From: Acidobacteriota bacterium | GTDB taxonomy: Bacteria; Acidobacteriota; Holophagae; Acanthopleuribacterales; Acanthopleuribacteraceae | DNA length: 64,000 bases | Reading direction: 5' to 3' | Assembly (NCBI GenBank): GCA_020439745.1 | Contig: JAGQSC010000015.1 | Location: 62,001 to 126,000 of the forward strand | Shown: in pieces, positions 43,707 to 50,284 of the stretch | Numbering within the stretch: position 1 is the stretch's first letter | Layout of the letters: each line of letters opens with the position of its first letter | Notes under the pieces: generated by a model | The model's database searches: none | What the model saw: the letters and a program-made list of their open reading frames with translations, nothing else | Told to the model about the DNA's origin: nothing | Made by a program: the position numbers and the translations under genes

Positions 43707-44471
43707 CTATGTGGCACCATCCAAGTAAAGCCACGAAAACCCCGTCTTGGTTTCAATCTCTTGGAAAGGAGAGAATCGAGGTTTGCTCGAATCACAAAAT
43801 TGGTGAAAATAGGTGGGATGGCCAGCCGCAATAACACGTTCTTGCGGGACACGCGCCTTTTGTAAACAGGCTTGCGCCTTGCGGCCCCATGCAACAAACC
43901 AGACATGAGTCATCTCAGAAAGCGCGCGCAATAAACTTGTGGTCCAAGCGCGCCAAAACTTATGATGGGCACGGCGATCCCCATGGCTGGTGTACGTCAA
44001 AGAAGCATTCATTAGTAACACGCCCTGTTGCATCCAGTAGCGAAACAAGTCCGTCGGCGTGCCAGCCCGACCACGCAATCGAGTTCTCACTTCACAAAGC
44101 GGCGTTCCGTATTCGGCAAATCCATGGTTAATCGCCAGTGCCTTGAGAATATTCCCCGAACAATTGCCAGCAATTGGCTGATCCCAGGTCAGGTGCTGAC
44201 GATCCCAGAAGGCGACCCCACACGCACTGGTCACACGCGGATAGGGTTCTTCTCCCAGCAAAACAACTTTGATACGTTCGGGTGGCACCCAATGAAACGC
44301 GTTAAATACCAAAGGTGCAACTGGACACAATTCAGAGCGACCCATCCATTGGCTGATATCGAGCGCCGGTGCCAACTGCCGCCACGCCTTAGGCCAATCA
44401 GGCCTGCCAAGCGCCCATTGCTCATGTTCTACCGGCCATAAACTGAATGGCAATTCATTTTCACCTTGCAT
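43707..44471 (-). CDS. Divergent uracil-DNA glycosylase (family 1-like) with altered catalytic box
   Basis: The 254-aa protein aligns by eye with Ung-type glycosylases along its length: 'RIKVVLLGEEPYP' (73-78), GVAFWD, 'VLLMNASLTYTSHGDRRAHHKFW' with the uracil-reading Asn155, 'VWFVAWGRKAQ', and a HPT at 218-220. The water-activating motif GQDPYH reads GEEPYP, so the catalytic Asp is Glu and the following His is Pro. The HPSPL loop is HPTYF, losing the minor-groove Leu. It could be a glycosylase with changed activity, a lesion- or uracil-binding protein, or an inactive paralogue. It is followed closely by trpS. Confidence 0.85.
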   Translation of the reverse strand: MQGENELPFSLWPVEHEQWALGRPDWPKAWRQLAPALDISQWMGRSELCPVAPLVFNAFHWVPPERIKVVLLGEEPYPRVTSACGVAFWDRQHLTWDQPIAGNCSGNILKALAINHGFAEYGTPLCEVRTRLRGRAGTPTDLFRYWMQQGVLLMNASLTYTSHGDRRAHHKFWRAWTTSLLRALSEMTHVWFVAWGRKAQACLQKARVPQERVIAAGHPTYFHQFCDSSKPRFSPFQEIETKTGFSWLYLDGAT

Positions 44472-44677
44472 TGACGTCCGATTCCAGCTAGATTTTTGCC
44501 CGGGAACTCTCTAAACTACGAGGCGAATCACGGGTTTGCTTCCGCGTTTGAGCATAACCCGAAACCGTAAGCGGTCATCCTTATTAACCGCAGAGATTAA
44601 CAAAAAGCCGCGCGCTCGAATGATCAGCACGATTGGATAGGTGGGACGCGTCCGGCACAAAGACTCGGAGGAATTCG

Positions 44678-46546
44678 ATGAGTAAAGTGAACATTGCATG
44701 TCTGATTGCGCCCATGATTGACACAGAAGGGCCCATGAATGTCAGCGGCAACGCACGTCTGGACGGCGCCAAGCGCATCATTGGTAAATATGGTGAAATC
44801 GCACTTGAAACAGCGATTACGTTTGGCACGGAACACCCCAATCAGATCCATTTGGACTTACTCAGTGTGGGTGACGAAAAGTCCGTTACGGCCATTCAAC
44901 AGAACGCCATTGCCATGATACAACCCGCCGCCCATCCAGGAACATTGGGTGTCCACGCCCTAAACGTTGACAATCTGGATGACCTGGACCCGTACGCAGT
45001 CGCCGAAATGCTGGTGGGCATGATCCAGAAGCTGGAAAACAAACCGGATCTGATTTTTGTCGGCCGCGAGTCATTTGACTACGCCCATGGCATTGTAGGA
45101 CCCACGATCGCACAAAGCCTGGGCATGCCCTTTTATTCAGGAATTTGTGAAATCGCATTTAACAGCGATTTCGAATCGGTGACCGCCACCTTCCAACAGG
45201 GCAATGACAAATTGGTCTATGACGTGCCACTCCCCGCAGTGTTTGGAACGACCGACTGGCTCAATGGCAAAGACAGTGCCCGCTTTACGTCTTTAAAAGG
45301 CGTCATGATGGCTAAGCGCTTCCAGCGCAACATCATGTCGCTGTCTGAACTAGGCGTATCTCAAGAAGGGAACAAGACCCAGATCCTTGGCATTGAACCC
45401 GTCAAATCTGATCGCAAAAACCGTCGCTTGGAAGATGGAGAAGCCGCAGACAAAGTGACACAAGCTATGAATTGGATGGTGCAAGAAGACAAAGCACTGT
45501 CTATTGGTTCTTCTGGCGGCAGTGGATCCCAAGGGGATGCCACCGTCCAATGGACCGACTCATCAAATATATCGGTAGAGGGTGAAATCCTACTCATCGC
45601 TGATCACGATAACAGCCATCTGCACCGGTCCACCTTGCAAGCGATCCAGGCACTCAAATCCGTGGTCGAAAAGAGTGGCAAACAAATCACGCTTGCACTA
45701 CTTTCCCAAGACCATAGCAAGGTTGGGGGACTCACGGGCTTGGACGTAGCCAAAGTGGTTGGCATGAGCGCACCAGACTTTGAACGGCCTTCGATCGCTG
45801 CAGTCATCAACGCAATCAAACCACTTGGCCAACCGGCAATCGTGGCCGTGGTTGCTGATGACTTTGGCCGTGATTTTGCCGCGGCATTTGCTGCCGCCCA
45901 TGGAGGCGCGGCTCTGCAAGACACGGTAGATCTTGACTGGGCTGACGGCCGTTTGGTGAGCCATCGTATCGTCTCCAACGCCCGTTTTGTGGTTCAGGAA
46001 GCCATTGTTCCAGGTGTGGTAGTCCAAGTTGCCAGCATTCGCGCAACCGCCTTCGACCCCGCCGAACCGACAGGGTCACCCCAATATCTACAAACCCAGG
46101 CGCCAGCGTTTGACGCTCAAGCAACTGTCAAAGAGTTTGTGGCCGGTGTCGCTGCCAAAGGTATTCCCCTTAACGAGGCACGTATTGTCATCGCAGGTGG
46201 AAGGGGCATGAAGGGTGCCGAGAACTTCAACCATCTCTACGAATTGGCTGATCTCTTGGGCGGTGCCGTGGGTGCATCCCGTGCTGTTACCGATCTGGGA
46301 TGGGTACCTCACAACCTCCAAATCGGTCAGACTGGTACTACGGTCGCGCCTGATGTCTATATTGCCATCGGTATTTCAGGAGCGATCCAGCACCTGACAG
46401 GCATGTTGGATTCCAAATACATCGTCGCCATCAATTCAGATGCTGAAGCGCCGATCCATCAGCATGCCGATATCTCCATTATCGATAAGTGGGAAAACGT
46501 GATGGGACCTCTGGTGGAAGCTTTTAGAAGCGCTTTAGGCAAGTAA
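44678..46546 (+). CDS. Fused electron transfer flavoprotein EtfB-EtfA
   Basis: The single 622-aa polypeptide joins both ETF subunits. ATG 44678 has GGAGG 6 nt upstream. Residues about 1-270 match the beta subunit ([10 protein letters not shown]..., [25 protein letters not shown]). A Gly/Ser-rich linker lies near 285-300. Residues about 305-622 match the alpha subunit, with the FAD-binding GGRGMKG (507-513), [22 protein letters not shown] and '[15 protein letters not shown]'. ETF passes electrons from flavin dehydrogenases to ETF:quinone oxidoreductase, or works in bifurcation with NADH. Two separate genes are the rule. A terminator follows directly. Confidence 0.92.
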
Positions 46547-48114: not shown

Positions 48115-50268
48115 TTATTTAGCGTTGATCGTCACAATGTCGTCACCGGTCACGTACACTTCCTGACTGAAAGAACCTATGGTCACTCGGTAAGTGCCCA
48201 CAGGCACCTCCACCCTATCGCCATTTTCGAAGCCACCCGCCACTTTTTGGCCCGACTGATCGAGCACTTCAAAGGGCCGACGCGTTGCCTGCACCATGGA
48301 AAGTGACAGCTCACCGGCGTTCTTGGCATCAAAGAAAGCGCCACCGCTGACGCCTGCCCAAAACTCAAACTCCTGGCGCAGTTCTGCGGAGTCAATGGCA
48401 AAACCCACGATGTTCACGCGCACATCCATGCCCGCGGCCCGAAGCGCGCGGATGGTAGCAGCTGGGTCACCGCCACAGGTTTCCTCGCCGTCAGTAAGAA
48501 GAATCACCGTTCTTTGCCCAGACACGCCGCTCAGATCTTGGGCCACCAACGCCAATGAATCAGCAATCGGTGTCTTCGCCAGATTCATCGCCTCAATGGT
48601 CTGGATCTTCTGTTTGGCCTGACTGCGTGTCAACGGCGCCAACGTCAACTCTAGATCTGTCCGACAGGTATCGGCTTCTCGATGACCAAACACCCTCATC
48701 GCCAAAAGCGTCCCCTCTGGAATGGTCTCATCGACCAACGAAATCAGCACCTGCTTGGCAATATCTATGCGTCGTTTTCCGTCCAATCGCTGTAACATGC
48801 TGCCTGAAGCATCAAGAATCAGCTCGATGGCATCTTCCGAACCCACACCTGCCGTCTTTGAGGACGATACTACTTGAATGAATCCCGGTCTTTCGGCGGC
48901 CGGTGCAACTTGAAGGGCTCGGGTTGCCAAGACAAGGTACGACTGACCCGTTTGATATCGCAGTTCATAATTCCCAGGCTCGCTGGGCGCATGCAGGCGC
49001 AAGGGATTGCCAAGATGCACAAACCGATAACTAGGCCAGGTTTTTGCATCGGAGCCCATGGGCGCAACAGCAATGAAATCGCGATCATTGCCGGGTCCCT
49101 CCCATGACACTTCAAAGTAGGAACCCGCCTCAACCTGGCCCGGGGCTTGTAACGAGGCGCTCACCGCAGTGACCACCAGTGGCTCTGCCGCCAGGGTGGC
49201 ATAAGTCTGTCCCGTCGCGTAACGCACTTCATATCGGCCCGGTTGATCTGGGGCAGGTAAGGACACGGGGTTACCTTTCGACGTGAATCGATATTTTTCA
49301 TAGCTTCTTTCGGGTGCATCCGCTGCCACGATCGTAATGAAATCACGGGGGTTATCCGGACCTGACCAGCGGATCTCAACGGGCGATCCTGCCGTCACTT
49401 GCTTTGCAAATTGCAAGGTGGCAGATGAGGCTGTCACCTCAAGGGGAATTGCCGAAAGCGTGTTGGAACCCTCCGTGTTGTAACGAATTTCATAGGTGCC
49501 GGGTTGATCGGGTGCGAGCAACGAGATGGGGTTGCCTATATGGGTGTAGGCATATTTTCCATACCGCTTGGGTCCAGCATCTTTCTCGACGATGGTGATG
49601 TAGTCACCTCGATTGTCAGGTCCTTCCCAATGGATGACCACTTCACCGCCCGCCAACGCAGTATTTGGCGCGGTTAATGAAGCACTGGTCGCGGTCACTT
49701 CGATGGTCATTGAAGCGAGTGTCAGATATTTTTGACCCGTCAAATATCTAATCTCATAAGTTCCCGCAGTGTCCGGTGCGCGCAATTTGACCGGGTTACC
49801 TCGACTGGTGTACTGGTAGTCTTTATACGTGCGTTCTGCAGCACCTTTGGCAACCACTGTGATGAAGTCACGGGGATTGTTGGGACCCTCCCATTGGACG
49901 GTCATTTCTGAGCCGGCCGCCACTGGAGTTTGCGTCGATAGTGACGCTGTCACCGGCACGACCAGCAATGGCTTGGCAGCCAAGGTCGGATAGCCCGATT
50001 CGCCGCTCAGATATCTAATCTCATACTTGCCAGGCACTTCTGGGGCCAAAGCAGACCATTTCTGTTGGGAGTTGTATTGATAACGGTCGTACTTACCGGC
50101 CGGCGTGTCTTGCGACACAATGGTGACGAATTCTTTCTTGCTAGAACCACCGGACCAGGTGACTTCAAAAGCCGCACCCGCCGAAACCTCGTCGGGAGCC
50201 TGAATCACAATTTGCCCATTGGCGTTTTGAACACCGGCCCATAAGAAAACACATAACAAACGGTTCAT
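48115..50268 (-). CDS. Exported vWA-domain protein with five tandem Ig-like repeats
   Basis: The 717-aa protein has a signal peptide (MNRLLCVFLWAGVQNANG), then five tandem repeats of about 86-92 residues (about 20-460). Each repeat has the pattern V-x-W-x-G-P-x-N-x-x-D-(F/Y)-I-T-(I/V)-V, a GNP turn, AP-x-x-PG-x-YE(I/V)RY and TLA. A von Willebrand factor A domain follows (about 478-650) with a complete MIDAS: DASGS (486-490), the Thr in LAKTPIADS, and LLTDGEE. The C-terminus has a short beta domain. MIDAS vWA domains bind ligands through divalent metal. The repeats are read from sequence; their binding role is unknown. Confidence 0.82.
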   Translation of the reverse strand: MNRLLCVFLWAGVQNANGQIVIQAPDEVSAGAAFEVTWSGGSSKKEFVTIVSQDTPAGKYDRYQYNSQQKWSALAPEVPGKYEIRYLSGESGYPTLAAKPLLVVPVTASLSTQTPVAAGSEMTVQWEGPNNPRDFITVVAKGAAERTYKDYQYTSRGNPVKLRAPDTAGTYEIRYLTGQKYLTLASMTIEVTATSASLTAPNTALAGGEVVIHWEGPDNRGDYITIVEKDAGPKRYGKYAYTHIGNPISLLAPDQPGTYEIRYNTEGSNTLSAIPLEVTASSATLQFAKQVTAGSPVEIRWSGPDNPRDFITIVAADAPERSYEKYRFTSKGNPVSLPAPDQPGRYEVRYATGQTYATLAAEPLVVTAVSASLQAPGQVEAGSYFEVSWEGPGNDRDFIAVAPMGSDAKTWPSYRFVHLGNPLRLHAPSEPGNYELRYQTGQSYLVLATRALQVAPAAERPGFIQVVSSSKTAGVGSEDAIELILDASGSMLQRLDGKRRIDIAKQVLISLVDETIPEGTLLAMRVFGHREADTCRTDLELTLAPLTRSQAKQKIQTIEAMNLAKTPIADSLALVAQDLSGVSGQRTVILLTDGEETCGGDPAATIRALRAAGMDVRVNIVGFAIDSAELRQEFEFWAGVSGGAFFDAKNAGELSLSMVQATRRPFEVLDQSGQKVAGGFENGDRVEVPVGTYRVTIGSFSQEVYVTGDDIVTINAK

Positions 50269-50284
50269 TTGGATCAACTCCCGC

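Follow-up and report, generated by a model that had tools for sequence, protein, structure and literature searches.

A Glu-Glu form of the catalytic doublet, conserved within one genus, in a divergent Ung-like protein of Acidobacteriota

How could a uracil-DNA glycosylase function when the motif 1 aspartate, better known than any other catalytic residue of Ung, has been replaced? This question is raised by an ung-like gene of an Acidobacteriota bacterium classified under the Acanthopleuribacteraceae, which lies in the 64-kb stretch of DNA that we have analysed as a whole (hereafter the window). Its product, reading ...VVLLGEEPYPRVTSACGVAF...GVLLMNASLT...WGRKAQ...GHPTYFHQFCD in the ORF translation, shows G73-EEPYP in place of GQDPYH, with Glu at the position of the catalytic Asp, as the initial annotation had pointed out and as our alignments bear out. 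The features of the locus are collected in table 1.

Table 1. Features of the ung-like gene and its neighbours, in window coordinates
Feature	Position	Strand	Basis
ung-like gene, NsaUNG-like protein of predicted Ung fold, 254 aa	43707..44471	(-)	ORF, NCBIfam ung models, AlphaFold2 model
Motif 1, water-activating box, G73-E-E-P-Y-P78 replacing GQDPYH	44238..44255	(-)	Sequence; sister L019 identical
Extended motif 1 (residues 69-90), retaining Y77 for thymine exclusion and F88 for uracil stacking	44202..44267	(-)	Alignments
Segment between motifs 1 and 3, residues 92-145	44037..44198	(-)	Alignments
Motif 3, residues 150-160, GVLLMNASLTY, uracil-specificity Asn N155	43992..44024	(-)	Alignment
Equivalent of the Gly-Ser loop, W195-G-R-K198, with Arg (Lys in sister) for Ser	43878..43889	(-)	Alignment
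Motif 2 / intercalation loop, H218-PTYFHQFCD227, retaining the catalytic His and with F222 at the HPSPL Leu position	43791..43820	(-)	Alignment; same in sister
trpS, whose start lies some 23 bp past the ung-like stop codon	42712..43683	(-)	Pfam tRNA-synt_1b; sister synteny in L019
Electron-transfer-flavoprotein gene, divergent, conserved neighbour	44633..46546	(+)	Pfam ETF; sister L019

By sequence comparison, the window protein is homologous to Ung far beyond chance. It is matched by the NCBIfam ung models with E values from 1e-23 to 1e-14, all below their curated cut-offs (for TIGR00628, 80.3 bits vs. a cut-off of 185.75), and by Ung sequences of the PDB at E 2e-14, while having no match to the Pfam UDG model or to the family-4 models TIGR00758 and TIGR03914. 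An AlphaFold2 model obtained from 50 sequences (the window protein, its sister and 48 viral relatives) reached a pLDDT of 82 and a pTM of 0.84; an earlier structure prediction from two sequences, with a pLDDT of 52, was set aside. Foldseek ranked the UNG of Nitratifractor salsuginis, 5x3g, first for this model (E 8e-10), and its superposition with human UNG by VIA-align gave a Z score of 21.2 at 2.5 A over 203 aligned residues, with Z around 21 also for 5x3h and 5x3g and many Ungs tied. The fold predicted by the model is the alpha/beta fold of Ung, and the Ung signature that had been recognised at the outset is indeed retained, with N155, WGRKAQ and HPT in place and a Z score of about 21.

The correspondence with canonical family 1 enzymes such as those of E. 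coli and human extends beyond the fold to the residues of the pocket. Alignment equates D64, Y66, F77, N123 and H187 of E. coli with E75, Y77, F88, N155 and H218, respectively, so that all four pocket residues outside the doublet are kept, including the Asn of the LLLN motif (N155) and the catalytic His of HPSPL (H218). In family 1 enzymes the equivalents of Y77, F88, N155 and H218 exclude thymine, stack on uracil, form hydrogen bonds with uracil and stabilise the leaving anion, respectively. The differences lie elsewhere: the canonical box GQDPY(H/P) is absent, its Tyr being kept while Asp and Gln are both changed to Glu, WGSH has become WGRK and the Pro-rich loop is missing. Among the other equivalent positions, E. 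coli Q63 corresponds to E74, H67 to P78 and L191 to F222. The HPSPL loop, previously described as lost, is better defined as rewritten: HPSPL with its intercalating Leu is absent, but H218-P219 persist in HPTYF, and F222 aligns with the Leu.

Which of these changes are truly unusual? The initial annotation had listed the replacement of Asp, that of the box His and the loss of HPSPL side by side, yet two thirds of this surprise is ordinary diversity. GQDPYP is the commonest form of the box among the homologues we gathered (52 of 95 distinct sequences, a count biased by one search pattern that contained PYP), HPSPL is widely replaced among them by HPASA, HPAYY and similar forms, and most of the phage Ung relatives gathered have both changes. 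Among eukaryotic viruses, mimivirus UNG has the box GQDPYP (PMC5538708), and vaccinia UDG (D4) has GIDPYP and no Leu, yet has been described as highly uracil-specific (PMC1936997). These viral enzymes thus share the box Pro with the window protein, and D4 the absence of Leu as well, but both keep the catalytic Asp. That residue is present in 92 of the 97 aligned homologue rows, the five exceptions being the window protein and its sister (Glu), the viral contig L083 (Glu) and two ADP-ribosyltransferase fusions (Asn). Judged from these alignments, only the change of Asp to Glu, with that of the preceding Gln to Glu, is really rare. The change is notable because it affects the very doublet by which families 1 and 4 are told apart, Gln-Asp in the former and Glu-Gly in the latter, the residues of which co-vary, strongly for the family-1 pair (PMC5387724). 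As a separate observation, L083:1869-2555 on an IMG/VR viral contig represents an independent change of Asp to Glu in a viral Ung, with the box GNEPYN, and is close to L054, which has GQDPYY.

The Glu-Glu doublet of the window is not an isolated occurrence. A second species of the genus, represented by the 'Holophagae bacterium' MAG contig JAJCXM010000004.1 (genome G001, locus L019), has a homologue which is also of 254 residues and is 48% identical to the window protein across its full length, with GEEPYPRV and HPTYFHQFCD identical in the two proteins. Along VVLLGEEPYPRV, nine of the 12 codons differ between window and sister, all nine synonymously and with no amino-acid change, while 20 of the 22 residues of the extended motif 1 are common to both. 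Identity amounts to 47/56 in four motif segments, chosen by us from the known motifs, vs. 70/186 elsewhere (P 5e-10). This combination of mostly synonymous codon changes and concentrated identity indicates that selection maintains the active site as we find it. The possibility of a sequencing error at the motif, raised by the initial annotation, is excluded, as is an error of assembly, since the independently assembled sister carries the same box and loop in different synonymous codons. Since this unusual active site is found again in the sister species, the gene probably encodes a functional but retuned repair enzyme, not a broken one.

Gene order is conserved too, for in L019 the homologue is flanked on one side by the divergent electron-transfer-flavoprotein gene and on the other by trpS and a third conserved gene. 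Given that this order is kept in the sister, the ung-like gene and trpS are probably co-transcribed. The gene has the base composition of its host; PADLOC gives no match for it as an anti-phage defence component, and no partner gene specific to its family was seen near the locus. At 48115-50277 of the window (- strand), a 720-aa ORF opens with five copies of a repeat of some 90 residues (EVTWSGP...DFITIV...YEIRYL), after which comes an apparent VWA domain, both recognised by eye.

The relatives of the two proteins are found outside the genus. Trees built from 74 and 35 proteins both place the window protein and its sister in a clade with good support (96/95 and, once the N. salsuginis enzyme, NsaUNG, is included, 100/99), and the clade, of nine members in the latter tree, stands apart from canonical and phage Ungs. 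It encompasses proteins from Sinorhizobium pSymA and Variovorax, two copies from the acidobacterium G121, the ADP-ribosyltransferase fusions and NsaUNG; branching inside it is uncertain, the branch of NsaUNG being long and drawn from the part of its sequence that appears in the HMMER output. In alignments, motifs 1 and 3 of the members are separated by an extra segment, located in the same region from which the Pro-rich loop is missing. In the window protein this segment (residues 92-145) is longer than in canonical Ung and devoid of the PPPPS loop, and it is common to NsaUNG and to the Sinorhizobium, Variovorax and fusion relatives.

NsaUNG, with the box GQDPYPRPES (PDB 5x3g/5x3h; Li et al.), shares with the window protein the context PYPR-x-ES-x-x-G-x-AF, the extra segment, the lack of HPSPL and an H-x-x-x-W segment; it differs in having GQDPYP with the catalytic Asp, and across the fold the two proteins are about 21-23% identical. 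It is also the best PDB match of the sister protein (5x3g, E 1e-20, the next enzyme following at 2e-15). NsaUNG is reportedly an 'unconventional family 1' enzyme, said to be active on uracil, specific for it and not inhibited by Ugi. The window protein thus has the extra segment, the box Pro and the absence of HPSPL that characterise the NsaUNG-like subgroup, but not its QD doublet, which is EE here; this doublet is not constant in the subgroup either, since the fusion members carry QN. The initial annotation had considered that a conserved clade with the same box might prove to be an ordinary UDG: a clade with this box does exist, known from two species of one genus, with no further member in samples of 396 and 395 Acidobacteriota genomes that largely overlap, and a literature search brought to light no family-1 enzyme assayed with a Glu-Glu doublet. 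GEEPYP is a conserved, genus-level variant within a known divergent subgroup of Ung.

Two other origins were considered and rejected. An origin in the canonical ung of the same taxonomic family, which is restricted to genomes G003 and G004, is contradicted by the position of these two genes in the canonical clade. A phage or plasmid origin of the window copy finds only distant relatives (about 22-33% identical) among phage and plasmid protein records and viral contigs, and the host base composition and conserved chromosomal neighbours speak against it.

Other members of this broader clade deserve mention in their own right. Apart from NsaUNG, the closest box context outside the genus (GQNPYPRVESATG) is that of the Ung-like domains fused to ADP-ribosyltransferases, which differ from the window protein in being part of a large protein and in having Asn for Asp. 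L120:1-3081 (G151, Acidobacteriota) combines a GQNPYP Ung-like domain with the ADP-ribosyltransferase PF01129 and a VWA domain, and L159:4125-6530 (WP_251091506.1, Streptomyces sp. Caat 7-52 plasmid NZ_CP098484.1) combines GQNPYP with PF01129 and a Macro domain; Ung domains 69-73% identical to this type occur also in Nonomuraea, Embleya and another Streptomyces. Such fusions are absent from PADLOC, our literature search found nothing on them, and they may link ADP-ribosylation with the recognition of DNA bases. In two unrelated bacteria, Ung-like genes of the same clade adjoin genes of the amidohydrolase family (L161:5100-5960 and L161:9999-11099 of G121; L160:2800-3663 of the Variovorax sp. 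RA8 plasmid), and the two genes of G121, one with GNDPYT, lie about 4 kb apart.

The evidence has to be considered alongside the other uracil repair enzymes of the organism. No other UDG gene is present in the window, as initially noted, the two Pfam-UDG matches of the genome lying on other contigs. The search for a canonical ung elsewhere in the source genome, which had been suggested, found none, and the suggested comparison with family 4 revealed a family-4 UDG (TIGR00758 above cut-off), present in all seven genomes of the taxonomic family. Owing to this enzyme, uracil repair is probably independent of the ung-like gene, which would not be its sole provider. Family 4 UDGs carry an Fe-S cluster. 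The family-4 UDGa of Thermus thermophilus resembles the window protein in having Glu first in the doublet, and its G42E mutant has the Glu-Glu doublet itself, but it has GEAPG/GEGPG and Glu47 for Tyr66, unlike the window protein with its Tyr77 and its profile matches to ung models. The motif GE(A/G)PG of family 4 and UdgX is also absent, since Tyr-Pro, not Gly, follows the box Pro. A third small protein of the UDG superfamily is encoded in the same genome (L002:1456-1986, contig C63; 176 aa), which is weakly family-4-like and has GQAPG and HPSPRN.

What, then, does the protein do? We lean slightly towards a divergent, NsaUNG-like monofunctional uracil-DNA glycosylase in which Glu75 positions the water. 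N155 and the backbone of motif 1 would read uracil, Y77 would keep thymine out and H218 would stabilise the leaving uracilate, while Glu75, in the role of Asp64, would position the water and balance the oxocarbenium ion, probably at a slower rate; F222 or Y221 could serve as an aromatic wedge instead of Leu191. The protein would then act as a second uracil-removal enzyme beside the family-4 UDG. Excision via Glu75 appears the most likely function since the pocket residues are kept and since, in Thermus family 4, the G42D and G42E substitutions at the Asp-equivalent position, the latter giving the same Glu-Glu doublet, kept more activity than other residues, His contributing more than water positioning in that family (PMC5387724). 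The existence of active Ungs with a box Pro and without Leu, vaccinia (PMC1936997) and, for the box Pro, mimivirus, also counts in its favour. Against Glu75 catalysis stand the near invariance of Asp in the alignment (92/97) and the strong co-variation of the Gln-Asp pair (PMC5387724); the Glu side chain is one carbon longer and water placement could fail, and the Asn of the related fusion domains suggests that this region of the clade tolerates the loss of Asp. Moreover, the family-4 UDG already covers uracil repair, which weakens the case for a second enzyme.

Altered chemistry or substrate, a binder devoid of catalysis and a decoy for DNA damage, the functions put forward by the initial annotation, may each still apply. 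The replacement of a nearly invariant Asp, the Asn of the nearest out-group domains, the availability of a family-4 UDG for actual repair and the precedent of vaccinia Ung for a role independent of catalysis (PMC1936997) would all suit a protein that binds uracil-containing or damaged DNA with little or no catalysis, its pocket still recognising uracil or an abasic site but, with the carboxylate misplaced, mainly holding or marking the site or serving as a scaffold for replication or repair. We consider this unlikely, though deserving attention, for Glu preserves the charge, a pure binder would have no need of H218, the second key catalytic residue, which is retained here, and no family-specific partner gene was seen nearby. 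With similar reserve we entertain a broader proposition, that a family-1-type Ung whose Gln-Asp has become Glu-Glu, halfway to the doublet of family 4, has a changed water step or a changed base and is retained for this use alongside the family-4 enzyme. That the protein is a glycosylase for another substrate (hypoxanthine, xanthine, or a pyrimidine in oxidised or modified form), comparable to the broad-range families 2, 3, 5 and 6, seems quite improbable: the rewritten doublet, the lost Pro-rich loop, the Arg or Lys for Ser in the Gly-Ser loop, the aromatic wedge and the coverage of plain uracil by another UDG would agree with it, but Y77, F88 and N155 are the specificity residues of strict uracil enzymes, and NsaUNG, too, is said to be uracil-specific. 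The similarly changed vaccinia Ung is described in the same terms (PMC1936997). Degeneration of the gene, or an error, is hardly credible despite a motif off consensus at three positions, given that a pocket so strictly conserved speaks against decay, that motif, loop and synteny are shared with a species whose assembly is independent and whose motif changes are mostly synonymous, and that the ORF is intact in both, which refutes it for the motif.

A smaller, practical consequence is that annotation pipelines overlook the protein when they use Pfam, and that its ung score falls short of the cut-off. For enzymology, the interest lies in which doublet has changed, since Gln-Asp vs. Glu-Gly constitutes a marked catalytic divide between families 1 and 4 (PMC5387724). 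A natural and selectively maintained Glu-Glu doublet makes it testable whether Glu can replace Asp in Ung, or whether an Ung can be retained solely as a binding protein.
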